Shown one piece after another: positions 18,893-53,790 of a DNA stretch of 64,000 bases (position 1 is the stretch's first letter; every line of letters begins with the position of its first letter). This DNA is from Thalassotalea sp. HSM 43 (lineage in GTDB: Bacteria; Pseudomonadota; Gammaproteobacteria; Enterobacterales; Alteromonadaceae): NCBI RefSeq assembly GCF_004752005.1, contig NZ_CP038493.1:2628302-2692301 (forward strand), read 5' to 3'. Under the pieces are notes generated by a model. That model was not told the DNA's origin, searched no databases, and saw nothing but the letters and a program-made list of their open reading frames with translations. The translations under genes were made by a program, and so were the position numbers.

Positions 18893-19930
18893 TTAACGCT
18901 TTTGCGCTTGATGAATCGCAAAACCTTTGTGATTAGCGAGCAAGTTTGAATGCCCAAATTGCTTTTCAATAATCGGTGCATACTTTAAAAAGCTGTTAGC
19001 AACTATGGTCAATTTACCATTTTTGTTGATTTTGTTTTTAACGCTTTGCAAAAACACTTCGGTGGTTTGGTAGTGGGTTTTTAAGCCTTGATGAAATGGC
19101 GGATTAGATACCACGAGTTGATAACCTTGGCCGACATTAGATAAACCGTCTGAGGCATAGACGTTACCGCTAAGCTTGTTAACAGCCAGTGTTTTTTCAG
19201 CGCTGGCAATCGCTAAGGCGTTGACATCAATCATTTCGATATCGGCATCGCGATTGGCCATCTTAATATAACAACCAATAACGCCCGCGCCGCAACCAAA
19301 ATCAAGCACCTTACCGGTCACTTTGTCTGGTATATGCTGCAATAATAACTGGGTACCGATATCAAGCTCTGCATGAGAGAACACGCCCGGCAAAGCGCAA
19401 ATGGTCAATGCCGTATCACCTTGCTGTATCTGATATTGGCGATACCAATCATCAAGCACAAATGCTGAACGGTTATTGTTAAACACCATCTCATACAAAA
19501 GGCAATGTCTTGCTGAATCAACTTTATCGCATCGCAAGGCATAGTCTGCTGCCAGTTTCGCCGCCGATTTAACCCCACCTTTATTTTCTCCAACGAACAA
19601 TACAATGGCGTTGTCGCTTAGGCTGTTCGAGAGCATGGCCATTTGCATGGTAAATTCAGGTTTAGATTTCGGGAAGTAAAAGATAACCAGATCATGTTGC
19701 TGCTTGCTTTGGTATTGTTCGCCAAATTCACAGTGCACATTTTGACAGGCTTTGCTTATCGCTTGATGTTGCGCATAATTTATCTGGTAACTGGTAACCT
19801 TGGCATCAGGATACAGTTGAGTCAGTTCTTTGATCAGTTCTACATCAGGGCAACCGACAACTAAGGGGTGTTTACTGTCCAATAAGTCAGTATTTCTGAG
19901 TAATAGTTGTGATGGATTACTAACAGCCAT
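18893..19930 (-). CDS. rsmC: 16S rRNA (guanine1207-N2)-methyltransferase RsmC
   Basis: This 345-residue protein has the two-domain layout of RsmC: a degenerate N-terminal methyltransferase-like domain that helps bind rRNA (residues 1-170) and an active C-terminal SAM-dependent domain. The SAM motif is VLDFGCGAGVIG and the catalytic motif is VVSNPPFHQG, typical of N2-guanine methyltransferases. It would methylate G1207 of 16S rRNA. Length matches the family (about 340). The gene is divergent from the lysine-riboswitch operon. A GGTAACTT-type sequence precedes the ATG, so the ribosome binding site is only moderate. Confidence 0.93.
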   Translation of the reverse strand: MAVSNPSQLLLRNTDLLDSKHPLVVGCPDVELIKELTQLYPDAKVTSYQINYAQHQAISKACQNVHCEFGEQYQSKQQHDLVIFYFPKSKPEFTMQMAMLSNSLSDNAIVLFVGENKGGVKSAAKLAADYALRCDKVDSARHCLLYEMVFNNNRSAFVLDDWYRQYQIQQGDTALTICALPGVFSHAELDIGTQLLLQHIPDKVTGKVLDFGCGAGVIGCYIKMANRDADIEMIDVNALAIASAEKTLAVNKLSGNVYASDGLSNVGQGYQLVVSNPPFHQGLKTHYQTTEVFLQSVKNKINKNGKLTIVANSFLKYAPIIEKQFGHSNLLANHKGFAIHQAQKR

Positions 19931-20135
19931 AAGTTACCGTGATGTCGTAAAAACGCTATTTTCGCATGTTATGACTATGGAAAAAAGCATAAATTTAGCC
20001 GAGCTAACACAATACCTTATTGCCAATGCAGCTATCATTTTAGGCAAGCCAGATGCGAGAACTTAGGCTGACTATATAAATGCGGTTTTGTGGTTTGCAT
20101 TGCGTTTGCTAAAGTGGTTAAATACGCGACATTCC

Positions 20136-20170
20136 GACACATTAAATATGTGTCTCATCCTTCCGAGGAT
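20136..20170 (+). promoter_or_regulatory. two leader stem-loops abutting the lysine riboswitch
   Basis: Two short perfect hairpins lie directly 5' of the aptamer. One is GACACAT/ATGTGTC with a 5-base loop (20136-20154). The other is ATCCT-TCCG-AGGAT (20157-20170). They may shield or stack on the aptamer, or one may mark the transcript's 5' end. No role is known to me. Confidence 0.4.
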
Positions 20171-20339
20171 CAGAAGAGGAGCGTTAACCAGGCAGTTATC
20201 CTTAGGGCCTTACCCGTATAAAGGATAATCAGGGGGATTATCGCCGAGGCAGATACCAAAAAAGGTAGGTATACTGTCGGCTGTATGGGTTGAATCCCTG
20301 CAGCTGTCGCTTAACATGAGTTTAAGTGGAGAGCTTCTG
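20171..20339 (+). promoter_or_regulatory. lysine riboswitch (L box)
   Basis: The conserved core of the lysine aptamer is visible in order: AGAGGAGCG after the P1 5' strand CAGAAG, a P2/P3 region with the pairing ATCCTTA/TAAGGAT, then GGGGGATTATCGCCGAGGC, a P4 hairpin, GTCGGCTGTATGGGTTGAA, CCCTGCAGCTGTCGC, and GTGGAGAG. It closes with the P1 3' strand CTTCTG at 20334-20339. P1 pairs perfectly over six bases. Lysine binding to this class represses lysine synthesis or uptake genes. Here it precedes dapA, the first committed step toward diaminopimelate and lysine. Confidence 0.93.
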
Positions 20340-20372
20340 GCCCCAGCATCATATTGCTGGCTCCAGTCTTTC
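20337..20372 (+). promoter_or_regulatory. riboswitch expression platform hairpin
   Basis: Immediately after P1, inner arms CCAGCA (20343-20348) and TGCTGG (20355-20360) plus outer arms CTGG (20337-20340) and CCAG (20363-20366) form a hairpin followed by TCTTTCTATTTA. The outer arm overlaps the P1 3' strand, so P1 and the full hairpin compete. Whether this acts as a weak terminator or an accessory fold is uncertain, since the U run is imperfect. Confidence 0.5.
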
Positions 20373-20439
20373 TATTTACGCTCGAATAATAAATATCGCG
20401 ATTAAGATAAACACATCGCACGCAGTAACGAGACGTAAC

Positions 20440-21342
20440 ATGACAACTTTTCAACTTGATGATTTTCCTCTATGGACAGCCTTAGTCACGCCGTTCAACG
20501 ACGCTGGCGAGATAGATTATGACAGCCTAGCTAAAATCGTAGAGGATCAAGTACAAGCTGGTAATGGTATTTTGATTTGCGGTAGCACCGGTGAAGGCTT
20601 GGCTATCGAACAACAAGAGCAATACCAAATTGTTAAATTTATTTGTGATTTACAGCCGCAGGTGCCGCTTATGGTTGCCGTTGGTGGTGCTAACCTAGCA
20701 GCACAATCGGCTTGGATTGAACAATGCAATTCGTTGCCAATACACAGTTACTTGCTCACCGCGCCGCTCTACACTAAACCTGGCATCATCGGTCAAACCA
20801 ATTGGTTTAAAGCACTGATGGATATCGCCACAAAACCGTGCATGATTTACAACGTGCCTTCGCGAACTGGCGTGAGTATCCCCGTTGAAACCGTACAAAA
20901 TCTTGCCGAGCATCCAAACTTGTGGGCAATGAAGGAAGCCAGTGGCGACATCAATGAGTTTTTAGGTTTTGTCGAAGCAGCGCCGAACATGAAAATGTAC
21001 TCAGGTGAAGACGCTCTGATCCCATACCTTGCCTCGGCTGGTGCTGTCGGTTTGGTGTCGGTTTGCGCCAACGCTTGGCCTGAGGCGACTCATTTGTATG
21101 TGCGTCAAGCATTGACTGGCCAAGGTGCTAGCTTATTTCCTGTTTGGTATAACGCCATCAGCCCGTTGTTTGAGGTTGCCAACCCAATTCCAGTCAAAGT
21201 GTTAATGCACAAGCAAGGGGTTATCTCATCGCCTGTATTGCGTGCACCACTAACCCATCTGGAACTGGCTTCTGATAGCAAAGTTTTGGCGGCGGATACA
21301 GCAATCACTGAGTGGTTGTGCAATAGCCGCAATAACCTTTAA
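20440..21342 (+). CDS. dapA: 4-hydroxy-tetrahydrodipicolinate synthase DapA
   Basis: A 300-residue class I aldolase-fold enzyme that condenses pyruvate with aspartate semialdehyde. Signature elements are LVTPFNDAGEID near the start, GSTGEG at 48-53, catalytic tyrosine Y137 in YNVPSRT and Schiff-base lysine K165 in AMKEASGD (E. coli Y133 and K161). The frame is open further upstream to 20326, but that start would lie inside the riboswitch; the ATG at 20440 gives the family N-terminus. The leader lysine riboswitch makes expression fall when lysine is plentiful. A metallohydrolase gene follows after 8 bases and must be co-transcribed. A second dapA elsewhere in the genome is possible, since this one is paired unusually. 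Confidence 0.93.
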   Translation: MTTFQLDDFPLWTALVTPFNDAGEIDYDSLAKIVEDQVQAGNGILICGSTGEGLAIEQQEQYQIVKFICDLQPQVPLMVAVGGANLAAQSAWIEQCNSLPIHSYLLTAPLYTKPGIIGQTNWFKALMDIATKPCMIYNVPSRTGVSIPVETVQNLAEHPNLWAMKEASGDINEFLGFVEAAPNMKMYSGEDALIPYLASAGAVGLVSVCANAWPEATHLYVRQALTGQGASLFPVWYNAISPLFEVANPIPVKVLMHKQGVISSPVLRAPLTHLELASDSKVLAADTAITEWLCNSRNNL

Positions 21343-21350
21343 TAGCAATT

Positions 21351-22466
21351 ATGACAGAGTTGTTTACCAAGCAAGTATTAACCGTCGGTGAGATGGCCAG
21401 TGGCGTGTCATTGACCATTCCTGTTTATCGCTTAAAAGGCAATGGACAAGGACCGTCAGTCTATATTCAAGCCAATATTCACGGCGCTGAAGTGCAGGGC
21501 AATGCGGTAATCTATCAATTACTAGAGCTATTGCAAAAGCAATCTCTGCTTGGTGATATCACGTTGGTGCCTTACGCCAACCCTGTCGGCTGTAATCATA
21601 AAAATGGTGAGTACACCTTAGGTCGATTTGACCCGATTACCGGTGTGAACTGGAATCGCATGTTCCATCATAATGAACAGCTGATTGAACACGTCATGCA
21701 AGAGCACAGCAACAGTGATGTTGATACCATCAAACAATATTTTCAGCAATTGATGTTAGATGATATTGAGCAAAAGCTGGATCACAACAATTACGGGTTA
21801 AGTACTGGCCGACGTATTGCTTATCGATTACAACAATTAGCGCACCAGCACGATATTGTTTTGGACTTACATACCGGGCCAATATCATCAAAACATATTT
21901 ATTGTCCGGAATACGCACGCAATAGTGCCAGCTTTTTCAATATTCCACATACCATATTGATCCCCAATGATTTTGCTGGGGCAATGGACGAAGCGACGTT
22001 TTGTCCATGGTGGACGCTAGCCGAGAAGTTTGCCGAAAATGGCCGCGAACTCGATTTTGGTAAGGAAAGTTTTACCGTAGAACTTGGCTCACAAGAGCTA
22101 ATCGATCTGGATGAAGCCTTATACGATGCCAAGTCAATCTTGTCTTACTTACAATATAAGCAGGTCATTGCCAGTGACGAATTTGTACCGCAAAACATCA
22201 CTCGTTACGCCTGTTACTTAAAAGATTACAAGATATTTTATTCGCCGATGGGCGGTATGGTCGACTATCTTGCGCAATTTGGTGAAGAACTAAAAGCTGG
22301 CTCACCGTTGGCGCGCATCTTACGTATGGACAACTACGGAGATGGTGATGCGTTGCATTATATCCAGTTAGAAGAAGATGCTATTCCTATTTTGCATTTT
22401 GCCTCGGCAAGCGTCAATTTAGGCACCGAACTGTATAAAGTCTTCACCAATTATTTCGAGTTGTAA
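21351..22466 (+). CDS. M14-type succinylglutamate desuccinylase/aspartoacylase-family metallohydrolase
   Basis: The 371-residue protein belongs to the AstE/AspA branch of the M14 zinc carboxypeptidase superfamily. Zinc ligands are H44 and E47 in NIHGAEVQG and H174 in VLDLHTGP, and the catalytic glutamate is probably E244 in FTVELGSQ. The C-terminal beta domain (about 285-371), with GGMVDYLAQFGEELKAGSPL, resembles the lid of this family. Family enzymes remove an acyl group from amino acids such as N-succinylglutamate or N-acetylaspartate. It starts 8 bases after dapA and is controlled by the same lysine riboswitch. That context suggests a substrate in lysine or diaminopimelate metabolism, for example an acylated intermediate, but this is inference. 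There is no signal peptide. Confidence 0.85.
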   Translation: MTELFTKQVLTVGEMASGVSLTIPVYRLKGNGQGPSVYIQANIHGAEVQGNAVIYQLLELLQKQSLLGDITLVPYANPVGCNHKNGEYTLGRFDPITGVNWNRMFHHNEQLIEHVMQEHSNSDVDTIKQYFQQLMLDDIEQKLDHNNYGLSTGRRIAYRLQQLAHQHDIVLDLHTGPISSKHIYCPEYARNSASFFNIPHTILIPNDFAGAMDEATFCPWWTLAEKFAENGRELDFGKESFTVELGSQELIDLDEALYDAKSILSYLQYKQVIASDEFVPQNITRYACYLKDYKIFYSPMGGMVDYLAQFGEELKAGSPLARILRMDNYGDGDALHYIQLEEDAIPILHFASASVNLGTELYKVFTNYFEL

Positions 22467-22495
22467 GCTCGCGCTCTACCGCGAATAAATATAAT

Positions 22496-22518
22496 AAGGG
22501 CTTGTTTAACAAGCCCTT
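22496..22518. terminator. bidirectional terminator between the dapA operon and the crotonase gene
   Basis: The stem AAGGGCTTGTT/AACAAGCCCTT has an essentially closed loop and is flanked by T residues on the right and an A-rich stretch on the left. It lies 30 bases after the plus-strand stop and 32 bases after the minus-strand stop. Confidence 0.75.
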
Positions 22519-22549
22519 TATGTTTGTAGCGGATATCTAATTTGAGTCA

Positions 22550-23356
22550 TTACCAACGCTGACGAGGGACAAAGTCTCGGCTTGCTTGTTCACCTTTGTC
22601 GATAGATTGCTGACGCTTAACCGCAATACGCTGATTCTTGGCAAGCAAGATTTTAATTTGGTACCAAGATTCGCGCATCAACCAGCGCCACGGTTTGTCA
22701 GTCCATGATTTATGATAGAGCTTTTTGCTGGCGGCCAATGTATCTGGTGAGCGCTGGCACAAGGATTGCGCAAATTCGATGGCACGTTGCAGTGGCTTGT
22801 CATCTAGCTCGGTAAGCAGACCATACTGCAGAGCTTGCTTAGCATCAAAGGTTTCTGCGCTCATCACCAACTTCAATGCTTGGTCTTTTGGCATCAGCTG
22901 CGCTAAGCCCATATTGCCACTCATGTCGGGGATGATGCCCCACTTTCCTTCCATGACGGAAAACTGGGCATTGTGATTGGCGATACGAAAATCCGCCCCT
23001 AAAATCAATTGCACACCGCCACCCAAGCAATGGCCTTCAATAGCGGCAATTACTGGGACCGGAATTGTACGCCAGTTGTGACTGACTCTTTGCGCTAGAT
23101 TCGCCTGCCCAGGCCACCATTTAAACAGCAGTTTTATCGCCGCGGTTTTGCTACCAAGCGCCGACTTAATATCGATGCCGGCGCAAAAGTTGTTACCAGA
23201 ACCGGTCAGGATGATGGCTCGTATTTGACGGTTTTTACGCAGCTGTTTTGACACCTTATCGATAGCTTCAAATAACTCGATATTTAAAGCATTCATCTTG
23301 TCGGGTCGGTTAAGGGTGACAATAGCGATATTGTCTTGGTAGCGAACATCGATCAT
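22550..23356 (-). CDS. crotonase/enoyl-CoA hydratase family protein
   Basis: A 268-residue crotonase-fold protein. The CoA-binding and oxyanion-hole segments are visible: NRPDKMNALN, the first oxyanion region FCAGIDIKSAL, and the second IEGHCLGGGVQLILGADFRIA. Such enzymes hydrate, isomerise or hydrolyse acyl-CoA esters; the exact reaction is not determined by the sequence I can read. The catalytic glutamate position seems to fall in SVMEGKWGIIPDMSG, a pattern common to enoyl-CoA hydratase-like proteins. I choose the ATG at 23356, with GGAGAT upstream, over an ATG at 23422. This start overlaps the stop of the preceding MAPEG gene as ATGA, so the two are translationally coupled. Confidence 0.85.
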   Translation of the reverse strand: MIDVRYQDNIAIVTLNRPDKMNALNIELFEAIDKVSKQLRKNRQIRAIILTGSGNNFCAGIDIKSALGSKTAAIKLLFKWWPGQANLAQRVSHNWRTIPVPVIAAIEGHCLGGGVQLILGADFRIANHNAQFSVMEGKWGIIPDMSGNMGLAQLMPKDQALKLVMSAETFDAKQALQYGLLTELDDKPLQRAIEFAQSLCQRSPDTLAASKKLYHKSWTDKPWRWLMRESWYQIKILLAKNQRIAVKRQQSIDKGEQASRDFVPRQRW

Positions 23357-26713: not shown

Positions 26714-29200
26714 TTAAAAGCTACCGCGTATACCGACAGAAAAATTGCGGCCTGGCAGTGGGGCGATATCTTTTAAGAAAGAACCGTGCACTCGACCTTC
26801 TTCGTCCGTTAAGTTTTGACCTTTAAAGAAGATTACAAAATCGTCACCGATGTTATCTAAATAGACGTTTACATTGGCATCGACCATGGTATAGCTGTCG
26901 GTCGATGTTTCCATCTCTGCAACATCGTCTTGTTCAAAGTAGTGAGTTACACCGGTTGAAATTACGTAGCTGTCTTGCTCGTAGGCAAGTTCAGAGCCGA
27001 TACGCATCGGTGGAATACGTGGTAGGTTTCCACCATCAGATAATTCGGCACGAATGTAATCGGCAATCACCGATAATTGTAACGGTTGAGATATTTGATA
27101 TACAAACTCAGCTTCCACACCATACATATCAACATCAGCTTGACGGTAAGCGTAAATCGGTAAACCTTCTTCATCGCCGTGCTCGTCTTCTTCCATCATG
27201 TCGACTTCGTCTTCATGCTCGTGGCCGTCTTCGGCAAAAAAACCTGTGTTTTGTTGGTAATAGTAATCTTCAACTTGGTTGTAAAAGGCACTTAGTACGA
27301 AACCAAAGTCACCTTCGAATTTACGCCAGGTCAAATCTAAGTTATACGATGTTTCCAGGTCGACATTTTGTGAGCCGACCTCAACATCGACGTGATCGTC
27401 ATGTTGTTCGACATCATAAATGGCGCCAACTTCAAAAGTGTTGGTACCGATATGTGGGCCATTAGAGAATAACTCCGCCGCAGATGGAGCACGTTGTGAA
27501 TACGATACTGAAAAACCTAGGTTGTAACCTGGTTGGTAATCCCATACCGCCCCAACGGACAAGCTAACCGGGGTGAAATCTTGATCATCGATACTGGCGT
27601 GTTCTTCGCCTTCATGTTCATCGAATTCTTCCTCGTGTTCTTCGTGCTCTTCATCATGCGCGAAAAAGTCACCATCTGCAGATAACTCAACGTACTCAAT
27701 ACGCGCGCCAATTTGCCAAAGTACATCGCCAAAGTGTTTCTCTTCTAACCAACCAAACGCGACCGATGTTGTCTCTGATGGTGGGCTAAATGCTTCATCA
27801 CCAATGGCTTCAAAATCACGGTCTTTGTAATGTAATGTCCATGCGCCTTTCCAGCCATTCACTTCGTGATGGTATAAATCGGTTCTTGCTTCAAACATTT
27901 CATTGTTAAATTGTGTACCTACTTCACCACCTTCAATTTCACGGTGTTCGTAGTCTGTATAGGCAAGCTTGGTGGCAACACGGTTTATAAAACTGTCATC
28001 GAATGTTAAGTCACTGAGCATTTGGTAGCGATCTTGCTCTAATTCACCACTGACCATTTCTTCGTGCTCTTCATGCTCATCGTGTTCATCAAGGCCTTCG
28101 AGCTCATCGTGCTCTTCATGCTCCTCACCATGTGCGTGACCTGGAATACCGTATTCACGATCTAAACGGCCATAGGATATACCGATGTAACCATTATCGA
28201 GTAAATAACTTGTGCCGATATTAAAGCCACTTGATTTGGCTGCGGTATTTTCGATAGTGCCTTTGGCTTCGCCTTCGTGCTCATCATGCTCTTCGTGTTC
28301 GTCATTACCTTCATCGTGACCTTCGTCGTGATCTTCATCATGGTCATCATGTAATTCGGCATAATCGGGAATATCAACGTCATTTGATTCGCGCCAAAAG
28401 CCATCTACATGCAAGGCAAAGCTGTCTGAGCCGGTGTTAATGGCGAGTGATGCCGCATCTTGGTCATTAACCGAATCGTGCGAGGCCATGTAATCAACTC
28501 GGTTGTCACTGTTGGTAGGTACACGATTATCGACAACGTTGACCACACCACCGATAGCACCGCTACCGTAAAATAAGGTTGATGGACCTCTTAACACTTC
28601 AATTTGTTGTGCGGTGCTCGCCTCTGCCGCGACAATGTGGTCCGGACCAACCCGTGATGCATCGGCAACATCTAGGCCGTTTTGCGTGATCAGCACACGA
28701 GGACCATCTTGGCCACGAATCACTGGGCTACTAGAGACACTGCCGTAAGAGGTTGAGTGAACGCCAACTTCACCTTTTAGGGTATCACCCAAAGTAGCTG
28801 CTTGTTTGCGGCGCAACTCGTCTGCAGCCAACACATTAACCGGCAATGCCGATTCTATGTTTGAGGTATGTAAAGGTGTCGCGTAAACGTCAACAACTTC
28901 AATTGATGAAGGAGATAATGTAACGTTTATTTCAGCGTTGTTGGCCGCGAGTACTTGTTTACTGATATGACCATAACCGGTGGCACTGATATGGATTTCA
29001 TGATCTTTCGCATCAAGATCGGTAAATGAAAATCGACCTTGCTCATCCGTGTATATGGTTTGGCTTTTTAATTTTACTTTGGCGTTCTTCACTGCATTGC
29101 CATCTTTATCGACAACGATGCCGGTAATATCTTGCGCTGCGAGTGAAGCAGAGACAAGCATAGGTATCAGTGCTAGCCCCCAAGTTTTAGCGGTAGCCAT
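26714..29200 (-). CDS. histidine-rich TonB-dependent receptor, probably zinc uptake (ZnuD-like)
   Basis: This 828-residue outer-membrane protein has a signal peptide ending near residue 22 (SASLAAQ), a carboxypeptidase-regulatory-like beta domain (about 23-105, GIVVDKDGNAVKNAKV), a plug domain (about 115-230, with SSPVIRGQDGPRVLI and GSGAIGGVVNVVDNR) and a beta barrel ending in NFSVGIRGSF. Four long His/Asp/Glu-rich stretches lie in extracellular-loop positions near residues 278-314, 354-384, 510-537 and 655-680, as in zinc receptors of the ZnuD type. Two Zur-like palindromes lie immediately upstream, supporting a zinc role. Transport needs TonB-ExbBD elsewhere. No periplasmic zinc transporter is adjacent. 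Confidence 0.9.
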   Translation of the reverse strand: MATAKTWGLALIPMLVSASLAAQDITGIVVDKDGNAVKNAKVKLKSQTIYTDEQGRFSFTDLDAKDHEIHISATGYGHISKQVLAANNAEINVTLSPSSIEVVDVYATPLHTSNIESALPVNVLAADELRRKQAATLGDTLKGEVGVHSTSYGSVSSSPVIRGQDGPRVLITQNGLDVADASRVGPDHIVAAEASTAQQIEVLRGPSTLFYGSGAIGGVVNVVDNRVPTNSDNRVDYMASHDSVNDQDAASLAINTGSDSFALHVDGFWRESNDVDIPDYAELHDDHDEDHDEGHDEGNDEHEEHDEHEGEAKGTIENTAAKSSGFNIGTSYLLDNGYIGISYGRLDREYGIPGHAHGEEHEEHDELEGLDEHDEHEEHEEMVSGELEQDRYQMLSDLTFDDSFINRVATKLAYTDYEHREIEGGEVGTQFNNEMFEARTDLYHHEVNGWKGAWTLHYKDRDFEAIGDEAFSPPSETTSVAFGWLEEKHFGDVLWQIGARIEYVELSADGDFFAHDEEHEEHEEEFDEHEGEEHASIDDQDFTPVSLSVGAVWDYQPGYNLGFSVSYSQRAPSAAELFSNGPHIGTNTFEVGAIYDVEQHDDHVDVEVGSQNVDLETSYNLDLTWRKFEGDFGFVLSAFYNQVEDYYYQQNTGFFAEDGHEHEDEVDMMEEDEHGDEEGLPIYAYRQADVDMYGVEAEFVYQISQPLQLSVIADYIRAELSDGGNLPRIPPMRIGSELAYEQDSYVISTGVTHYFEQDDVAEMETSTDSYTMVDANVNVYLDNIGDDFVIFFKGQNLTDEEGRVHGSFLKDIAPLPGRNFSVGIRGSF

Positions 29201-44331: not shown

Positions 44332-47300
44332 ATGAAAGTATCTGTTAATTTACTGGCACAAAGCATTCGCTATTCGCTGTTAGCATCCGTGCTGAGCGTG
44401 CCTGTATCTCAATATGCCTTTGCTGAACAAGAAACCGAAACGACGGTTGAACAAGAAGCAGAGCAGCAACAAACTGACGAAGACATTGAAGTATTTCAAG
44501 TCACTGGCTCGCGTATCAGTCAAACCTCATTTGAGGGGCCTAATCCGGTTACCGTAATTACCGGTGAAGACATGGCAAGACAAGGGCACATAACCTTGTT
44601 CGATGCATTACAAGACCTGTCGCAAAATACCGGTTTGGTTGACACCAACGAAGTGGGCGCGAGCGGTTTTACGCCGAATGCCAATGTCGTTAATTTGCGT
44701 GGCTTTGGTCCGCAATACACCTTAACTCTGATTAACGGTCGCCGTTTAGCTAATTATCCTGCCGCCTATCAGTCAAATAGCTCGGTGGTTAATATCGGTA
44801 CCATTCCAACCGCCGCCATTGAACGTGTGGAAGTGCTAACAACGGGCGCGTCGGCCATTTATGGTAGTGATGCGGTATCTGGCGTTATTAACGTTATTCT
44901 CAAAAAAGACGTTGAAGGCACCAATGTTGCTTTAACCTACGGTACTGGTGAAGAGCACGGCCAGGATAACTATCGTTTGCAGTTGACCCATGGTATTGAC
45001 CTTGATCAGGGCAATATCACTTTAATTGGTGAATACGCCTCTAGCGATTACGTTAAAGGCGGTGATTTAGACGATATAGACTCTGCTTTTGATTACCCAT
45101 ACGGCGATCCTGTCATGGCGCGTGGTGCGGTTCAAATCGACAATTGGGCAGCCTATGATTACCTACTTAATCCAACTGGTGAGCCAAGCTACATAGATCC
45201 AGGCGAAAACGGTTGTGCCGATTTACCTTGGACCAGTTACCAGTATCGCAGTCAGTTGCCAGAGGCAGAAGCACTCGGCCAAACCGGCGGTTCTTGGGGA
45301 CATTATTGCGGATTTGATAGCGCTAAATATCGCACCCTAAGACCTGAAACTGAAAAGTTCGCATTTATGATTTCAGCCAATCATGACATGGGTGGAGACG
45401 TTAGTGGTTTTATTGATTTGCTTTATACGCAAAATACCGCGGAAACCGACCATGGTCACATCGCTGTTAACGGTGGGACGGTAGAATTAGAAACCGGTGC
45501 CAACCAACTTAAAGTAAAAGATGGCAATGGCCAATATTTGGTAATGCCAGACTGGCACACTTTAGGTCGTATTTTACCGACTCAAGAGATCGGTGATACC
45601 GCATACCATTTTGATGAAGAGTCGTTGAGCATTACCCTAGGTATTGAGGGGGAGCTTGGCGATCATAGTTGGGAAGTGTACTTTACTGATTCGCGTTATG
45701 AGCTTGATACCGAACAGCAGGCGCTGAGATATCAAGAAACGGAAGAAATGTTTTTTGGCAACTATGTCAAAGAACAGCTCGGTATCAAAGTCTACGACGG
45801 AACCGGCACACACACGGTTTATGATCGCCTAAGCCCTGAAGACATTCGTCGTTTAGTGGGCACCACCACCACCAATAATAAAACCGAAGCGCAAATGGCC
45901 AGTGCCGTTATCACCGGTGACTTATTCGATATGCCAGCTGGTGCTGCTCAATATGCGGCAGTATTGGAATACGTAAACGAAGAGTTTGAATATCAACCAG
46001 ACGAGTTGATGACTCGACCAGAAGGTGAAGGTTGGTGGGGATTAGCAGGTTTTGGCGGCTTTGGTGAGCGTTCTCGTTCATCCGCAGGCTTGGAAACCAA
46101 ACTGCCGATTTCAGATTATCTTAACTTTGGCTTTGCCATTCGCTATGACCAATATGACAGTGCATCAAGTTCAAACGACGGTCAGTACACACCGGCCTAC
46201 AACGTAGAGTTTCGTCCTAATGATGAATGGCTGTTCAGAGCCAGTTACTCGCGCTCCTTTAAAGCGCCGGATATGCAGGCTATTTTCACTCGCTCTAGAG
46301 CCTTTAGTTTTGGTACCGATTACGTATCGTGTTACGAGCAATTCTTTGCTGGCAGTGTTAGCCCAAGTGAGTTTGTAAAAGATTCACTATATTACAGTCA
46401 ATGTTTAGGCAGCACATTTAATGCTGAGCAGTTACCTAACACCGAATTGGAAAACGAAGAAGGCACCTCGATCGGTTTAGGCTTTGTCTATTCACCTATG
46501 CCTGAGTTGACCATTAAGTTTGATTATTACGATGTAGAAATCCGTAATCAGGTGCAGCGTGGCGATATTTCGTCAATCCTTATCGAAGACTTCCATTGTC
46601 GTTATGGCACCGGCGAATCAGCGCCTATTTTTGGTTGTGACATCGTCACAGGTACCGAGGACCGCCAAGGCTTGGTTATCCGTAATGAAAACAACAACAG
46701 CGATGACCCCCTTGCTGGTGGCAGTTTAGAAACGGTAAATACCACCGCCTTTAACTTGGCCTCCTATCGTCAAACCGGTATCGATTCGTCCATTGAATAT
46801 TTATTGGATGTTGGCAGCTGGGGCGATCTGCGTTTTGCCGCCAGTCACACCGGTATATTAACCACAGAATACGATGCTTTAGCGGATGATGATCAAGCGC
46901 CTTATAGCTTTAGCGACAACATTGCTAACCGCGAGCCGCAAGACATTGTTACCGCATCGGTGAGCTATTTCTACGAGAATTTTGCCGCAACCTTGTCGGC
47001 GCGTTACATGAGTGAATTGGCTCCGCACCGCATACTGCCGAAAAAAGATGAAAACGGTGACGTGCTTTTCTTTGATCAATACGGCGATACCCTGAACTAC
47101 CAAATCAATGATGACGGTGAATACATAATCGAAGACGGTTATTTCGAAGGCCAGGATGCGCGTTTAGTGGGGGAGACCAAGCGTTCGCAAAAGCGCCTTG
47201 ACCCATTTATTACCGCCAATTTAGTACTCGCATATTCGTTCAATGAAGGTGATACCAATGTGTCGCTTACCGTACAGAACGTTTTTGATGAACAAGCACC

Positions 47301-47409
47301 TAAAGATGACACCTTTATGGCAACCGAGTGGCCTTGGTACGACATCTATAGCTATTCAGGGTCAGCACTGGGACGCGAATATTTTATTCAGCTAAGTCAT
47401 CAGTTTTAA
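44332..47409 (+). CDS. TonB-dependent receptor paired with a subtilase
   Basis: The 1025-residue outer-membrane receptor has a signal peptide ending about residue 32 (SQYAFAEQE), a short acidic-Gln linker, a plug domain (about 55-195) starting VFQVTGSRIS, with VNLRGFGPQYTLTLINGR and YGSDAVSGVINVIL, and a beta-barrel of about 800 residues ending in EYFIQLSHQF with the terminal aromatic needed for Bam-mediated insertion. This architecture, with VTGSRI in front of the plug, is common in marine Alteromonadales receptors for peptides or sugars. A secreted subtilase gene follows after 57 bases, so a peptide ligand is plausible but not shown. Confidence 0.92.
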   Translation: MKVSVNLLAQSIRYSLLASVLSVPVSQYAFAEQETETTVEQEAEQQQTDEDIEVFQVTGSRISQTSFEGPNPVTVITGEDMARQGHITLFDALQDLSQNTGLVDTNEVGASGFTPNANVVNLRGFGPQYTLTLINGRRLANYPAAYQSNSSVVNIGTIPTAAIERVEVLTTGASAIYGSDAVSGVINVILKKDVEGTNVALTYGTGEEHGQDNYRLQLTHGIDLDQGNITLIGEYASSDYVKGGDLDDIDSAFDYPYGDPVMARGAVQIDNWAAYDYLLNPTGEPSYIDPGENGCADLPWTSYQYRSQLPEAEALGQTGGSWGHYCGFDSAKYRTLRPETEKFAFMISANHDMGGDVSGFIDLLYTQNTAETDHGHIAVNGGTVELETGANQLKVKDGNGQYLVMPDWHTLGRILPTQEIGDTAYHFDEESLSITLGIEGELGDHSWEVYFTDSRYELDTEQQALRYQETEEMFFGNYVKEQLGIKVYDGTGTHTVYDRLSPEDIRRLVGTTTTNNKTEAQMASAVITGDLFDMPAGAAQYAAVLEYVNEEFEYQPDELMTRPEGEGWWGLAGFGGFGERSRSSAGLETKLPISDYLNFGFAIRYDQYDSASSSNDGQYTPAYNVEFRPNDEWLFRASYSRSFKAPDMQAIFTRSRAFSFGTDYVSCYEQFFAGSVSPSEFVKDSLYYSQCLGSTFNAEQLPNTELENEEGTSIGLGFVYSPMPELTIKFDYYDVEIRNQVQRGDISSILIEDFHCRYGTGESAPIFGCDIVTGTEDRQGLVIRNENNNSDDPLAGGSLETVNTTAFNLASYRQTGIDSSIEYLLDVGSWGDLRFAASHTGILTTEYDALADDDQAPYSFSDNIANREPQDIVTASVSYFYENFAATLSARYMSELAPHRILPKKDENGDVLFFDQYGDTLNYQINDDGEYIIEDGYFEGQDARLVGETKRSQKRLDPFITANLVLAYSFNEGDTNVSLTVQNVFDEQAPKDDTFMATEWPWYDIYSYSGSALGREYFIQLSHQF

Positions 47410-47466: not shown

Positions 47467-50400
47467 ATGAATACCAAAAAATTCATTTTCGCCGCCGGTG
47501 GTGCACTATATGTTAGTAGTGCAATGGCCGCCGCGCAGATTTGGGATCTTGAGAAAACCGAGCTACCGGCTCATTTACTCGACTCTAATGTGCGCCAACA
47601 AATTGATATTCCGGCAACCGCGGTATCGACGACCAATAGCGTCAAAGCAAAAGTTAATCGCTTTAATGGCATGCCAAGTGTCAACAATGTCGTTAACCAA
47701 CAAATAACGCGCACAGAGAAGTTCAGCTACGACCCCGAGATAAGCGGCAAGCATGAATTTGTCGTGATCTTGGCGCAAGAGCCTGTCGCTACCTACAAAG
47801 GTGGTGTCGCTGGCCTTGAGGCAACGCATTTAAAGACCTTTGCCCAGCAACAAACTGGCAGTCACTTGCAAGCCGATGGTCATTCCGCACCGATGGAACG
47901 CAGTACATTACGCGCGTTGAAAACATCAAGCCAATACCAATCACGTATTGATGCTTACCAAGATTATTTAGTCGCTAGCCAACAGCAATTTGTGCAATCG
48001 GCAGCGTCTATTGGCGTAAACATTAAGCTCAATTATCAATACACCAATGCCATTAATGGTTTTTCGACGGTGATGACCCAGGAGCAAGCACAGCAATTGG
48101 CCTCGTTTGCTAATGTGCTGTCGATTTCGCCGGTAAGAACGTTCCAATTACAAGAATTGGTAAACAGTGAGCTGCTTGGCTCGAGTGACGTGATTGCGGT
48201 TGAACCGGTCTGGAATGCTTGGGGCTACAAAGGTGAGGGGGTGATTGTTGGTGTTGCCGACACCGGTATCAATGCCAGCAGTGCCTCATTTAGTGACGTT
48301 GGTGGTGACGGTTACGTGCATACCAACCCTTTAGGTGATGGCAATTATCTTGGTGATTGTGCAAACCAAGAATGGCGCCACTTATGTAATAACAAACTTA
48401 TTGGTGTTTACTCTTATGAAGAAATCACCAGCTATTACCGTTCTCAACTGGCTCACAAAGTCACAGAAGATCGAGGCGAAGAGGTCGATCTATCTAACGA
48501 TGGCATGATACGACCTGCCAACGGCATAGATTATGTTGGTCATGGTAGCCACACCAGTGGTATTGCTGCCGGTAATTACGTTAAAGATGTCGATTTTCTC
48601 TATCGCCAATTATTAAAAGGCCCTGGTGTTGCAGCCATGGAAGAGCCAATTGGTGATTTATCGGGTATTGCCCCGCACGCGAATGTTATTTCTTATCAGG
48701 TGTGTTTACCCGGTGGTGGCAGCGATGCCCTAGCAGGTTGTTTAGAAACCGCCATGATTGCCGCATTAGAGCAGTCCGTTGAAGATGGCATTGATGTCCT
48801 TAACTGGTCAATTGGTGGTGGTTCCCGCGACCCTTGGGGTGACCCAATTTTGCGAGGCTTTTTGACCTTAAAAGAACATGGTGTTCATGTCACTGCCGCA
48901 GCGGGCAACACCGGTGGTTATGAAGACGTGTCAAACGTTACACCGTGGTCATTGACGGTTGGCGCTACCTCTCTTGGTCGTGACAATGAAAATGTTGGTT
49001 CTGCCACCTTACTATACAGTGTCGATGGTAACGATTTTGATGCTATCGAGCTGGGCGGAGAGCGCGCTTACAGTATTTCGGGTCATGCATCGGGGTTGGC
49101 GGCGTTGGGCGCTAACATGGGGGAATGTATCAACAGTGATTGTTCGCCAGCACCAGTATGTGAGCAGGGCTCCGAATTAATTGACGGCTATTGCTATCTA
49201 CAATGTACTGAAGAGCAACGTCGTAATGCAGAAACTTTAGAATGTGAATTTATTGCCGGTTCAGGCAGTGGCTCACAAGATGATGGTTGTCTTATTGGCG
49301 AACAAAATGTCTTGGGTATGTGTCTGCCTGATCACGTCCATGGACCATCTAGTTGGGAAAGTATTTGTGAAGGTGGTGAAATTGCTCTTTACCCAGAATT
49401 GGACGGCACCATCATTGATGGCGAACTGATCAAAGGTGAACATCAAGGTTATATCTGCCCAACCATTAAGTACGACGATTGTCCTACAGACCACAGAGGT
49501 TTCAGCGGAGCTTCTGACGGTATGTGTTGTTCATACGGTGTGATTGATAACCCAGATGTGGCTAATCAGAAAATCTGGCCGGGTCACCCATTCTTTATCG
49601 AAGACAGTTTTCACGGCGCGTGTCATTCGCCGCAAGGTCAACATTTTGCCAATAATGGTCCGTTAAGTGCTAACAACACCAGCTTGCAATCGGATTTTAC
49701 CCAGTCGATTGAAACCGCCGGTAATGTTGCCAGCAAATTGACCGCGTACCAAGGTAAACATGACGGTGCAAATGCAGCAGATATCTCTGCCACGCCAGTG
49801 CCTGTTCTGCCACAAATGAAAATATTTGCTGGCGACCCATATTGTCTTGATTTAGACAGCTGGAAAGATCCGAACCAGCCAAACGTTGATTTTGATTTTA
49901 CTGATAAAATTTTAGTGTGTGGTCGTGGTGATGATTCAGTTATTGGCAATGTCTCACGTATTAATAAAGCCCAAGACGCGTTTTATCGTGATGCCGCTGG
50001 TATGGTGTTATATAACACCACCAAAGAGTATCCATACAATTATCGTTATGCGACCGCATTAAACTTCCCGGTTTATGCTGATGAAGAGCAAACCGAAATC
50101 ATCGAATATAAAAACTTCCCATACATTCATGTCGGTAATGGTTCTTGGAAGCGTGGTGTTGGTCGAACAACGTTACGTCAGATGTTTATTGAAAACAGTG
50201 AGTTGCATCTACAGATTAACTCGGTGCAAAAATCGATATCTTATGATCCAAAGCGTATTCGCGACTTGGCTGGTTTTTCTTCGAAAGGTCCAAACAAATA
50301 TTATCCAAGCCTTATGGGGCCATCATTGGTGGCACCAGGTGAAAATATCCTAGCGCCTTTCACCAATGACAGTGCCTTTACCACCCGTGCAAATTCAGCG

Positions 50401-53400
50401 GATTATGCTTTTGATACCGGTACCTCTATGGCCGCACCGCATATGGCGGGTGTTATGGCACTATTGGCACAAGTGCGTGGCGATGAGTGGACCGCAACTG
50501 AACGTGAATCGGCAGTGATGCTGACCGCAGGTACGGTCACCGGTGGTTCATGGTTACGTATTGACTGTTCTGGTTTGGACATCGTCAATAACCAAGATTT
50601 CACTGATTACAATCAAGATGCGGATGTGGTTTGTCCGGAATACGATGAAGACAATATTTTCCATCAAGAATTTGTTTATGAGGCACCGTATATTGATGTT
50701 GAAACCGGTGACTATGCCGTTGATGAAAACGATGAGATCTTGCAAAAAGTATTTAAAAGCTACTTTGAACGTCAGCAAACTCGTTCGTGGGAAGCCGGTT
50801 CTGGCTTGGTTAATGTCGAAGCAGCGCTGCATTCTGGTCTTATCATGGATGAGAGCTACGACAATTATATGGCCGCCGATCCAAACAAAGGGGGTGACAT
50901 TACTCAGTTAAATTTACCGTATTTATTTAACGGTGAGTGCAGCGGCGAGTGTTACTTTACCCGTACTTTTACATCAACTGTTGCCGGCACTAATACCTGG
51001 GTAATTGATGTTGAAACCAGTGAAGAGTCGATTACCTTAGAAGCCTCAAAAGACAGCTTTACGCTCAATAAAGGTGAATCTGCGACAGTATTCTTTACGG
51101 CAAGAATAAAGCGTTCAACCAGTGCCAGCTCAGATGGTTCAGGTATGGTCGATGGTGTGGTTAATTTGATCGCGCAAACACCGGGTGTGGTGTCGGCGCA
51201 TCTACCTGTCGGCATCGCCTTAACGCCGTCACGACTACCCCTTATGGGACAAGGTAAGGCGTCTGAAGATGTTGGCCAATTCCCATTAAAAGGCATAGCG
51301 CCGTGGGGGTCGACTGACGACTTACAAGCGAATATTTATCATCAAGGCGGCGTGTCATATATCGCTACCGATAGTGACGGACAACTTGTTAGCCAAGGCG
51401 CAGGACAATTTTTCTTCGACAGCAGCGAGTTTAGCCATAACTCAACACTTATTGGCCAAACAGAGCTGGTCGTTGACCAAAGCCCTAACCATGGTGACCT
51501 TACTCAGCAAGCCGCAGAGTTCTCTATCGCTGAAGACTCGTTGCACTTGTTATGGGTTGATGTGCCTGCCAATACTAAGTTACTGGCCATAGATGTATTA
51601 GAGCATGTCGCAAGCTCAACTGAAGCCAGCGGTCTGCCTGATGATATCTGGAAACGCGGCGATTTACTGGTGGTTGTTGGACGAGACAATGACAACAACC
51701 AAGAGCTGGACTACAAACAAGAAGGCATGTGTGTGTCGTCGACCGAGTTGAGCTTAAACCATTGTTTGATTCATTATCCTGAGCCAGGCAAATACTGGAT
51801 TCATCTGCAAAATGTTGGCACCAGCCGCTTTACCGAAGTCAAAGACACCTTTAAGTACGCACTGTCGGTTATCAGCGATGAGGCGTCAAATGAGATGACC
51901 GTTATCGCCCCTGAGTCTTACCAAGGAACGCAATCGTTTACCTTGGATGTGGCGTACGATATCGCCCTTAATCAAGGTGATGCGGTATATGGCTTTGTCG
52001 AGTTGGGCAGCTCTGAAAACAACCTAAATAATTTAGGTGCGATGCCTGTCAAACTTGAGCGTGGTGAAGATTCATTTACCGTTGAAGTGTCCGATACAGA
52101 GGTTAAAGCCGGAAATTATGTTCGTGTCGATGTCGCTTATGCGCCTAACCATACCGGCTATCAGCGTACCTTTGAATTAGATGTCGAACTACCAGAGGGG
52201 TTAACCTACATCCCTTATAGTGTTGGTGGTGATCCACGTTTTGTTACCGGTTATCAGGAACAAGCAAACAAATTGACCATCAGTGGTTATCAGCCTAACA
52301 GTTATCGTATGCTGCCGTTTTACCAAATCAGCAGCAACGTCAACCCTGATAAAGAAGGTTTTGAAGATCACCCATTAGCCGCGGCCTATAGTGCGCAATG
52401 TTCAACACCAAATGTTGGCTCATACATTGATGGCTCACATCCAAATGGTGGCTATATTGATTTAGCGCGCTTGAATTGGCGCTTGGCGAACCCGCCTTAT
52501 GGTTCTGAGCAGCCAAATCGAATGGACTCATGGCGCGATATGATCCGTCTAAATACCCAGCAATTATTTGGCTTTGGTACCGATGCTGATTTCAATATGT
52601 TCAATGCACCAAACGCATACCATGAATTGCGTATTAGCCCTATGGGTTATATTGACTCGGGTGCTGATTACCCTATGTTTGGCGTGCCTTATGGCGACCC
52701 GTTTACCAGCATGCACTTTTTACCGGACATTCGTTTAGCAGCACTGACGGTTGGTAGCGCCGATACGCAATTAACCACAGGTAAGAAAGCACCTGCCGAT
52801 GCGTTATTGGCCGATGATGCACAAGGCATTACCTTGGCGGCATTTAGAAGTGAGAGCAACAAGAACGTCATCATCGAGTGGGACAATGCCTACACTGTCA
52901 AAGGTGATCGATACAACTTTGGTAGCGAAGGCACACCGCAAGGCGATAGTTTCGACTTTATGGCGATGATTGATCTTGAATACAGCTATGAAGTGGGCAG
53001 CTATGAATTGATTTTTGCTTATGACAACATTCAAACAACCCACAGCTTAGGTTCGATAGGCTTCCATGGAATGGCTGGCTTGCGTACCACTTTTGGTCCG
53101 GTAGGCGGCTATCGCAACCGCTCAATTGGTTACAATAACATCGACCAATTATTGCATGATGATCTGGTTATTTGTTTTGACTTTGTCGGTGATGATTACA
53201 GTAAATCAAACTTTAGTTTTTGGCTAAAAGTCGATGAGGCCGCTGCAGGTGAAGAGATTGAGTTTACGGTTAAAACCAAGCTCGATCGAATCACCAAGTC
53301 AGTGACTAATACGATGACAGTGGCTGGCAATATCAGCATCAGTGATATCGATGATGTGGTTATTAATCAAGGTGAGCGTGTCGAGATACCTGTTATTTAT

Positions 53401-53790
53401 AATGACATTGCCAATAGCAACAACCAAATTAGTGTGGTTGCCGATTCATTAGTGACCGAACTATCTGGTCATAGCCCTGGTTCGATATTAACTATTGACG
53501 CCCGTTGTGACTTTGCTGGCACGACACAAGTCGAGGTGACAGTAACCGACATGGATAACGCCGATGATAAAGCCAGTACCTCGTTCTTGGTTAATGTACA
53601 GCCGGTAAATGGTTTTACAGCGAATGCTGATTGTAACAGCGAAAGCGAGTCTGAAAACGAATCAGAGTCAGGTTCTGGTTCACTCGAAGTTGAAAAAGAC
53701 TCCGACAGTTCAGGTGGTTCTTTGGCCTTTATGTTATTGGCATTATTACTACTAAGCACGCTAGTTCGTGCTAACAAAGCGGTGAAATAA
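47467..53790 (+). CDS. giant secreted S8 subtilase with GlyGly-CTERM sorting tail
   Basis: A 2107-residue exported serine protease. It has a signal peptide (cleaved near AMAAA, residue 22), an I9-type propeptide (about 80-230) and a subtilisin domain with D265 in GVADTGIN, H359 in GHGSHTSG, oxyanion N481 in AAAGNTGG and S987 in GTSMAAPH. Between N481 and S987 lie a 14-cysteine insertion (C554-C719) and a PA-like domain (about 780-900). Long beta-sandwich-like regions follow (about 1140-2060). The tail is a Ser/Glu-rich linker, SGGS, a hydrophobic helix and basic residues: a GlyGly-CTERM signal cut by rhombosortase and linked to type II secretion. It probably digests external protein for the receptor upstream. 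Confidence 0.92.
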   Translation: MNTKKFIFAAGGALYVSSAMAAAQIWDLEKTELPAHLLDSNVRQQIDIPATAVSTTNSVKAKVNRFNGMPSVNNVVNQQITRTEKFSYDPEISGKHEFVVILAQEPVATYKGGVAGLEATHLKTFAQQQTGSHLQADGHSAPMERSTLRALKTSSQYQSRIDAYQDYLVASQQQFVQSAASIGVNIKLNYQYTNAINGFSTVMTQEQAQQLASFANVLSISPVRTFQLQELVNSELLGSSDVIAVEPVWNAWGYKGEGVIVGVADTGINASSASFSDVGGDGYVHTNPLGDGNYLGDCANQEWRHLCNNKLIGVYSYEEITSYYRSQLAHKVTEDRGEEVDLSNDGMIRPANGIDYVGHGSHTSGIAAGNYVKDVDFLYRQLLKGPGVAAMEEPIGDLSGIAPHANVISYQVCLPGGGSDALAGCLETAMIAALEQSVEDGIDVLNWSIGGGSRDPWGDPILRGFLTLKEHGVHVTAAAGNTGGYEDVSNVTPWSLTVGATSLGRDNENVGSATLLYSVDGNDFDAIELGGERAYSISGHASGLAALGANMGECINSDCSPAPVCEQGSELIDGYCYLQCTEEQRRNAETLECEFIAGSGSGSQDDGCLIGEQNVLGMCLPDHVHGPSSWESICEGGEIALYPELDGTIIDGELIKGEHQGYICPTIKYDDCPTDHRGFSGASDGMCCSYGVIDNPDVANQKIWPGHPFFIEDSFHGACHSPQGQHFANNGPLSANNTSLQSDFTQSIETAGNVASKLTAYQGKHDGANAADISATPVPVLPQMKIFAGDPYCLDLDSWKDPNQPNVDFDFTDKILVCGRGDDSVIGNVSRINKAQDAFYRDAAGMVLYNTTKEYPYNYRYATALNFPVYADEEQTEIIEYKNFPYIHVGNGSWKRGVGRTTLRQMFIENSELHLQINSVQKSISYDPKRIRDLAGFSSKGPNKYYPSLMGPSLVAPGENILAPFTNDSAFTTRANSADYAFDTGTSMAAPHMAGVMALLAQVRGDEWTATERESAVMLTAGTVTGGSWLRIDCSGLDIVNNQDFTDYNQDADVVCPEYDEDNIFHQEFVYEAPYIDVETGDYAVDENDEILQKVFKSYFERQQTRSWEAGSGLVNVEAALHSGLIMDESYDNYMAADPNKGGDITQLNLPYLFNGECSGECYFTRTFTSTVAGTNTWVIDVETSEESITLEASKDSFTLNKGESATVFFTARIKRSTSASSDGSGMVDGVVNLIAQTPGVVSAHLPVGIALTPSRLPLMGQGKASEDVGQFPLKGIAPWGSTDDLQANIYHQGGVSYIATDSDGQLVSQGAGQFFFDSSEFSHNSTLIGQTELVVDQSPNHGDLTQQAAEFSIAEDSLHLLWVDVPANTKLLAIDVLEHVASSTEASGLPDDIWKRGDLLVVVGRDNDNNQELDYKQEGMCVSSTELSLNHCLIHYPEPGKYWIHLQNVGTSRFTEVKDTFKYALSVISDEASNEMTVIAPESYQGTQSFTLDVAYDIALNQGDAVYGFVELGSSENNLNNLGAMPVKLERGEDSFTVEVSDTEVKAGNYVRVDVAYAPNHTGYQRTFELDVELPEGLTYIPYSVGGDPRFVTGYQEQANKLTISGYQPNSYRMLPFYQISSNVNPDKEGFEDHPLAAAYSAQCSTPNVGSYIDGSHPNGGYIDLARLNWRLANPPYGSEQPNRMDSWRDMIRLNTQQLFGFGTDADFNMFNAPNAYHELRISPMGYIDSGADYPMFGVPYGDPFTSMHFLPDIRLAALTVGSADTQLTTGKKAPADALLADDAQGITLAAFRSESNKNVIIEWDNAYTVKGDRYNFGSEGTPQGDSFDFMAMIDLEYSYEVGSYELIFAYDNIQTTHSLGSIGFHGMAGLRTTFGPVGGYRNRSIGYNNIDQLLHDDLVICFDFVGDDYSKSNFSFWLKVDEAAAGEEIEFTVKTKLDRITKSVTNTMTVAGNISISDIDDVVINQGERVEIPVIYNDIANSNNQISVVADSLVTELSGHSPGSILTIDARCDFAGTTQVEVTVTDMDNADDKASTSFLVNVQPVNGFTANADCNSESESENESESGSGSLEVEKDSDSSGGSLAFMLLALLLLSTLVRANKAVK

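Follow-up and report, generated by a model that had tools for sequence, protein, structure and literature searches.

A lysine riboswitch-linked AstE/AspA-type hydrolase as a probable desuccinylase of a lysine-repressible branch of the succinylase pathway

We analyzed a 64,000-nucleotide stretch of the Thalassotalea sp. HSM 43 genome, referred to here as the window, in which a lysine riboswitch (L-box) precedes dapA and a second gene, hyd, that encodes an AstE/AspA-type (M14-like) zinc hydrolase. Judging from the genes with which it is found, Hyd probably removes the succinyl group in a branch of the succinylase pathway that lysine would repress. Among relatives, hyd recurs behind the genes for a divergent succinyltransferase, DapD*, and a divergent decarboxylase, LysA*, mostly in company with an L-box and with no dapE or dapF matched in the operon. 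As DapD* is by its sequence an N-succinyltransferase, a desuccinylation step must follow, and this linkage makes Hyd the likely enzyme for it.

The ancestral operon would have had the order L-box-[lysC]-[dapB]-dapA-dapD*-lysA*-hyd. DapD* would succinylate tetrahydrodipicolinate, and a shared aminotransferase would then give N-succinyl-LL-diaminopimelate (N-succinyl-LL-DAP), from whose alpha-amino nitrogen Hyd would take off the succinyl group, as DapE does. Alternatively, LysA* would act first and Hyd would then desuccinylate N2-succinyl-L-lysine. The window would represent a shortened version from which dapD* and lysA* are missing. Since LysA* is lacking there, N-succinyl-LL-DAP is favored as the substrate of the window Hyd, which is most likely a second, lysine-controlled desuccinylase acting beside a housekeeping M20-type DapE. 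From the comparisons that follow we infer the substrates and reactions of Hyd and LysA*, that the genes are co-transcribed and controlled by lysine, and that dapD*-lysA* was lost.

The riboswitch, dapA, and hyd in the window

The aptamer of the L-box (RF00168) is located at 20166-20344 on the + strand, where cmscan aligned it over the full length of the model (positions 1-182) with 75 bits (E 9e-18) against a gathering score of 30, and it is the sole Rfam match above gathering score within the window. The leader, taken as 20150-20460, folds more stably than its shuffled versions (z -3.66). For comparison, the window L-box was aligned with 16 further L-boxes from related operons and the host genome. 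The gene that follows on the same strand, dapA, runs from the ATG at 20440 to the stop at 21342 and encodes 4-hydroxy-tetrahydrodipicolinate synthase; its product passed the equivalog cut-off of TIGR00674 (248.2 bits; cut-off 206.15) and matched PF00701 with 177.7 bits. The ATG at 20440 was taken as the start, the mechanical open reading frame (ORF) beginning further upstream, at 20326. The L-box and dapA of the original prediction, which was made from the sequence alone, are thus confirmed; the start given there for the locus, 20136, is 30 bases before that of the aptamer.

The hyd gene (21351-22466, + strand) starts 8 bases after the dapA stop and encodes a protein of 371 residues. Its product matched the catalytic domain PF24827 (AstE_AspA_cat) with 108.6 bits, well past the gathering cut-off of 25. 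Residues H44, E47, H174, and E244 do not vary among 18 aligned homologues or in any of the ten groups displayed from a wider alignment, which comprise 49 of its 59 rows. We take H44, E47, and H174 to be the zinc ligands and E244 the probable catalytic residue, as in the family. An AstE/AspA-type hydrolase with these four residues intact, directly behind dapA, is what had been predicted, and that description held. D213 and E214 are acidic in the displayed homologue groups except for a dapF-linked set, HydB, described below, in which N/Q is found; this difference is a possible lead to specificity.

By far the best matches of Hyd in the PDB, covering nearly its whole length, were 3fmc (467.5 bits) and 3lwu (438.9 bits), structural-genomics entries named putative succinylglutamate desuccinylase/aspartoacylase, for which function is only putative. 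Hyd shares with AstE and AspA the PF24827 catalytic domain, the zinc ligands, and the catalytic Glu; it differs from them in that its identified operon partners are lysine genes and in that no AstE or AspA model of NCBIfam matched it at E<=0.001. Hyd as AstE proper was therefore rejected, no AstE equivalog model having matched. The sole NCBIfam match was DoeB, N2-acetyl-2,4-diaminobutanoate deacetylase, at 32.9 bits, far under the cut-off of 402.7. Neither the Pfam nor the NCBIfam scan of Hyd gave an M20 or DapE (TIGR01246) match; Hyd belongs to an M14-like and DapE to the M20 peptidase family.

Recurrence of hyd with lysine genes and its partner enzymes

A scan of named genomes found 401 relatives, of which the best 80, from Thalassotalea, Colwellia, Pseudoalteromonas, and their kin, were kept (the 80 loci). 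The gene order was dapA-dapD*-lysA*-hyd in 48, dapD*-lysA*-hyd in 21, dapA-hyd in seven, and hyd alone in four, hyd following lysine genes in 76 of the 80. An L-box was present upstream of the first gene in 75, the exceptions being the four hyd-alone loci and locus L101. The hidden Markov model used for this assignment was built from 17 sequences, seven of them from the same loci; Rfam agreed on the L-box in each of the nine loci tested. The genes dapD* and lysA* were both kept in 69 loci and both absent in the rest, with no locus holding one without the other. No match to dapE, dapF, a dapB-like gene, or canonical lysA was obtained inside the 80 loci, the dapF search covering the loci only, and dapE and dapF were also unmatched in loci L136 and L137. 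The next ORF of at least 150 residues after hyd lies on the opposite strand in 45 of the 80.

At the level of the order, 119 genomes were searched, and hyd was present in 20 at E<=1e-30. The gene directly upstream was lysA* in seven, lysC in six, and dapA in one, the window itself, for a total of 14 of the 20. In extended loci from other genomes, Rfam located an L-box in seven of 11, with both L-box-lysC-hyd and L-box-lysC-dapA-dapD*-lysA*-hyd among them; the L-box was not found in the extended loci L130 (genome G029), L131, L142, and L143. The notion that such relatives lack the riboswitch, which had come from 19 loci with 1.5-kb flanks and no L-box in any, was rejected, as the L-box precedes lysC or dapA, beyond the reach of those short loci, and becomes visible with longer flanks.

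A class-wide search of 369 genomes gave matches in eight at E<=1e-40 and led to a distant family, f76. Nine f76 genomes carry a homologue of hyd directly behind lysA*, and all seven of these loci whose flanks reach far enough read lysC-dapB-dapA-dapD*-lysA*-hyd. An L-box lies upstream of the operon in six of the seven; in the remaining one, L192, lysC is at the very end of the contig. The DapB-like protein of these operons is short and scored 92 and 106.7 bits, under the dapB cut-off of 122. No match to dapE, dapF, or canonical lysA was found in the f76 lysA* operons, the search for canonical lysA, dapD, and dapF in this family covering loci only.

The recurrent linkage to lysine genes in the 80 loci, in the order-level genomes, and in f76 led us to reject hyd as a chance neighbor, and its breadth points to a role in the diaminopimelate or lysine route, which the original prediction had proposed for a hydrolase behind a lysine riboswitch. 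Regular residence in ast operons, which would have spoken against such a role, was not seen, the partners being lysine genes, in comparisons that included no search aimed at ast genes. Nothing pointed to hydrolysis of an exported lysine derivative, another possibility in the original prediction, in comparisons none of which was aimed at it.

Neighbors of homologues without lysine partners were examined by Pfam scan in ten cases, yielding an M16 peptidase, a serine acetyltransferase, a DUF3360 protein, an alpha/beta hydrolase, two ThiF-family proteins, a zinc-binding dehydrogenase, a DsbA-like protein, an EamA transporter, and an AhpC/TSA protein. Families of arginine catabolism were met in none of these ten, again with no search directed at ast genes. 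A gene for a ThiF-family adenylyltransferase lies upstream of the unlinked homologue in L145 (G031) and L149 (G106), two genomes of the window's family, and these homologues form a branch of their own. In one hyd-alone locus, hyd is followed on the same strand by an EamA-family transporter gene (L064:8188-9069).

In a tree of 59 rows, the window Hyd falls into a starred set of four rows with three Thalassotalea dapA-hyd loci, and this set is nested in a supported Colwelliaceae clade of 15 rows. Within the clade, dapD*-lysA* is kept in six, the arrangement is dapA-hyd in five (including the window) and hyd alone in three, and one, L006, has no lysine neighbor. Since dapD*-lysA* is also common to Pseudoalteromonas, families f16 and f76, and G029, the dapA-hyd arrangement of the window is best read, from the tree as judged by eye, as a secondary loss of dapD*-lysA*.

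DapD* passed the N-succinyltransferase equivalog NF008808 in the three proteins scanned (293.2, 286.3, and 293.9 bits; cut-off 204) and is by this match a tetrahydrodipicolinate N-succinyltransferase. It scores far under the usual proteobacterial dapD model and is thus a second, different DapD. LysA* missed the cut-off of the diaminopimelate decarboxylase model TIGR01048 (297.9), with 192.1-209.5 bits in four proteins and 165-211 at the operon places of a panel of 29 genomes. Its mean identity to 12 canonical LysA proteins, from 12 loci fetched out of the same panel, is 24%, and in each of these 12 loci the canonical lysA adjoins dapF. The motifs CE[ST]GD and RPx[LI]Y occur in all 12 canonical LysA and in none of 81 LysA*, and the reverse is true of RPx[IVL]T and FLxH, present in all 81 LysA* and none of the 12.

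When LysA* from L098 was compared with the PDB, BtrK ranked first (135 bits), followed by 6knh (116 bits) and then by a named LysA of other origin (114 bits). Entry 6knh carries the same listed molecule name and length as 6knk, the entry for SbnH. In PMC7857480, SbnH (6knk) is described as an N-citryl-L-2,3-diaminopropionate decarboxylase and the BtrK substrate as carrier-bound glutamate, and the Cys loop and 3-10 helix are said to differ according to substrate. LysA* has CT and FLxH elements in common with BtrK and SbnH, alanine-racemase-fold decarboxylases of acylated L-amino acids, but unlike them it retains a LysA-like RP element and resides in lysine operons. The assignment of LysA* residues to the Cys loop and 3-10 helix was made by our own alignment rather than from a solved LysA* structure.

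Hyd and the DapE step

Substitution of Hyd for DapE had also been proposed. The host genome, G000, is a single 4.0 Mb contig and has a canonical M20-type dapE at G000:C1:211544-212650 (556 bits), a gene separate from hyd; Hyd as the sole DapE of this genome was thereby rejected, and its presence is not explained merely as the replacement of a missing DapE. Canonical dapD (477 bits) and canonical lysA (540 bits) are present as well, and the lysA and dapD searches revealed no second, divergent copy of either in the host genome. The window dapA is the only PF00701 match in the genome. Of the three host L-boxes, the two outside the window locus precede a gene for a transporter of the Na+/H+-antiporter family (L025) and one for a lysine-sensitive aspartokinase (L026).

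In the panel, canonical lysA scored above cut-off in 29 of 29 genomes, canonical dapD in 27, and dapE in 28. Hyd would carry out the same desuccinylation as DapE, or a neighboring one, in the succinylase branch; a true DapE is present in 28 of the 29 panel genomes. The exception is G029, which has neither canonical dapD nor dapE above cut-off and carries dapB-dapD*-lysA*-hyd with no L-box, its dapB scoring below cut-off. Its congener G003 has dapE (519.8 bits) and no hyd at E<=1e-30. Separately, the panel genome G001, which is without hyd, has canonical dapD below cut-off (best 19.6 bits) and both dapE and two lysA genes above cut-off.

Family f76 provided a further case. None of 30 f76 genomes, 28 of them at least 90% complete, contains canonical dapE above cut-off. 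Nine of the 30 (loci L132 and L150-L158) have a divergent homologue, hydB, with dapF directly upstream in all nine; the one such dapF product tested passed TIGR00652 with 204 bits. In seven f76 genomes the two homologues occur together, one after lysA* and the other after dapF. Substitution for DapE, although it does not explain the window, may apply in the few relatives without detected dapE, namely G029 and the nine f76 genomes with dapF-hydB. Four nearly complete f76 genomes, G508, G510, G512, and G515, were negative with both the dapE model and the hydB query (E<=1e-10). M20 proteins encoded beside argH in two others, G497 and G520, passed the acetylornithine deacetylase cut-off.

Several observations weigh against a desuccinylase role for Hyd in a lysine branch, or limit its reach. 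With dapE, canonical dapD, and lysA at hand, the host does not need Hyd to complete the pathway. Homologues without a lysine neighbor amount to six of the 20 at the order level and four of the 80 close loci. A same-strand ORF of at least 150 residues lies within 250 bases downstream of hyd in 18 of the 80 loci, so that hyd is often, not always, the last gene. G029 is a draft genome, 92% complete with 5% contamination, in which the missing dapE may be an assembly gap, and its contrast with G003 is accordingly suggestive only. HydB is just 29-32% identical to the window Hyd, and their grouping is unsupported (84/33). Seven of the 30 f76 genomes lack canonical dapE and also show nothing that matches the hydB query (E<=1e-10), which means that dapE absence by itself proves nothing. 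In G498 and G505, the M20 proteins encoded next to argH score under every equivalog cut-off, so that a divergent DapE is possible there. Lastly, should the substrate of Hyd be a product of LysA*, the window enzyme, in a genome without LysA*, would have none.

Order of the branch reactions and relation to known systems

The composition of the operon raises the question of where Hyd would act relative to LysA*. The motifs of LysA*, the separation of lysA* from dapF, and the division of the two homologues in f76 favor N2-succinyl-L-lysine as the substrate, whereas the retention of hyd at places that lack LysA* (the window and the loci of the dapA-hyd and lysC-hyd types) and the situation in G029 favor N-succinyl-LL-DAP. 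A broader proposal, plausible from the sequences but held with less confidence than the desuccinylase role itself, is that the operon constitutes a lysine branch bypassing meso-DAP, in which LysA* would act on N-succinyl-LL-DAP (or LL-DAP), Hyd would desuccinylate, and neither DapF nor LysA would be needed; the window would then be a decayed or repurposed remnant. In its sharper form this bypass would also dispense with DapE.

That sharper form, which we regard as possible but doubtful, is that decarboxylation comes first: LysA* would convert N-succinyl-LL-DAP at its free L-center to N2-succinyl-L-lysine, and Hyd would be an N2-succinyl-lysine desuccinylase, giving lysine without DapE, DapF, LysA, or meso-DAP. 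Being a sharper version of the desuccinylase role, it overlaps with it in probability. It would account for the higher ranking of BtrK and 6knh over the named diaminopimelate decarboxylase of other origin in the L098 comparison, for the differences in the Cys-loop and 3-10-helix regions between the 81 LysA* and 12 canonical sequences, and for the joint presence or absence of dapD* and lysA* in all 80 loci. It is also in keeping with the adjacency of canonical lysA to dapF in 12 of 12 loci, set against the absence of any match to either gene from the 80 loci and from the f76 lysA* operons, and with the seven f76 genomes in which one homologue stands with lysA* and the other with dapF. However, hyd is also retained where LysA* is missing, as in the window genome and the dapA-hyd and lysC-hyd loci, canonical lysA is retained throughout the panel, G029 and the dapF-hydB pairs suit a DapE-like role, and the residue argument rests on alignment instead of a solved LysA* structure.

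Much of the evidence for both substrates would be reconciled by a variant in which LysA* takes LL-DAP. Here Hyd would act first as a DapE analogue, converting N-succinyl-LL-DAP to LL-DAP, LysA* would be an LL-DAP decarboxylase, and only DapF would be bypassed. This explains how Hyd could function whether or not LysA* is present, the lack of a dapF match in the operons, and the likeness of LysA* to L-amino-acid decarboxylases. We nonetheless consider it unlikely, as the motif likeness of LysA* to SbnH (the R, a small hydroxyl residue, and FLxH) better suits an acylated substrate.

It is less likely still that Hyd is a repair enzyme under lysine control, deacylating side-reaction or salvage products such as N-acetyl- or N-succinyl-lysine and acyl-DAP released by turnover. 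The retention of hyd where dapD*-lysA* is absent would agree with this, as would DoeB being the sole NCBIfam match, far under cut-off as it is, but the recognized operon partners across families are biosynthetic genes. Finally, a function in arginine catabolism (AstE) or N-acetylaspartate turnover, with placement behind the riboswitch by chance, has superfamily membership alone in its favor and is very improbable given the missing AstE/AspA match in NCBIfam and the recurrence of the lysine linkage across families with varied partners.

The operon type is partly known already. In a 2017 survey (PMC5584792), the L-box operon of Pseudoalteromonas haloplanktis is listed as dapA-dapD-lysA-hypothetical1-hypothetical2 and described as restricted to Pseudoalteromonas, and an L-box before dapD is given for Colwellia psychrerythraea. 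The P. haloplanktis operon is of the same type as those analyzed here, with hyd corresponding by position in the Pseudoalteromonas loci to hypothetical1. Relative to that account, the operon proves much more widespread, and its dapD and lysA are divergent second copies. In the sources available to us, mostly open-access literature and in part only, we found no account of this breadth, of the divergent DapD* and LysA*, of the six-gene form in f76, of the dapF-hydB pairing, or of a role for hyd.

Lysine and the meso-DAP of the cell wall normally share one route, and lysine control of that route therefore also touches the supply of wall precursors. If the operon does form a lysine branch that bypasses meso-DAP, the riboswitch could lower lysine synthesis while largely sparing the later meso-DAP steps for the cell wall, and a separate tail to lysine under riboswitch control, equipped with a succinyltransferase, a decarboxylase, and a desuccinylase of its own, would mean that the pathway is wired in a new way. 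A function would also be gained for a structurally solved group with putative names (3fmc, 3lwu) and for genes called hypothetical, and the automatic labels diaminopimelate decarboxylase and succinylglutamate desuccinylase would become questionable in many marine bacteria. On a more modest reading, Hyd would be a second enzyme family for the DapE step, a step of interest as an antibiotic target.

Other features of the window were noted. An intrinsic terminator-like hairpin with a 10-pair stem and a T-rich tail lies 3' of hyd at 22496-22518 (+ strand); its basis is a consensus scan only, which returned six sites in 19900-22600 against a shuffle mean of 2.3. A TonB-dependent receptor (PF00593, PF07715) is encoded at 26714-29200 on the - strand, and its long His/Asp/Glu-rich stretches suggest a metal-related receptor. 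At 47467-53790 (+ strand), directly downstream of another TonB-dependent receptor gene (44332-47409, + strand), is a gene for a subtilase-family protein (PF00082) of 2107 residues.

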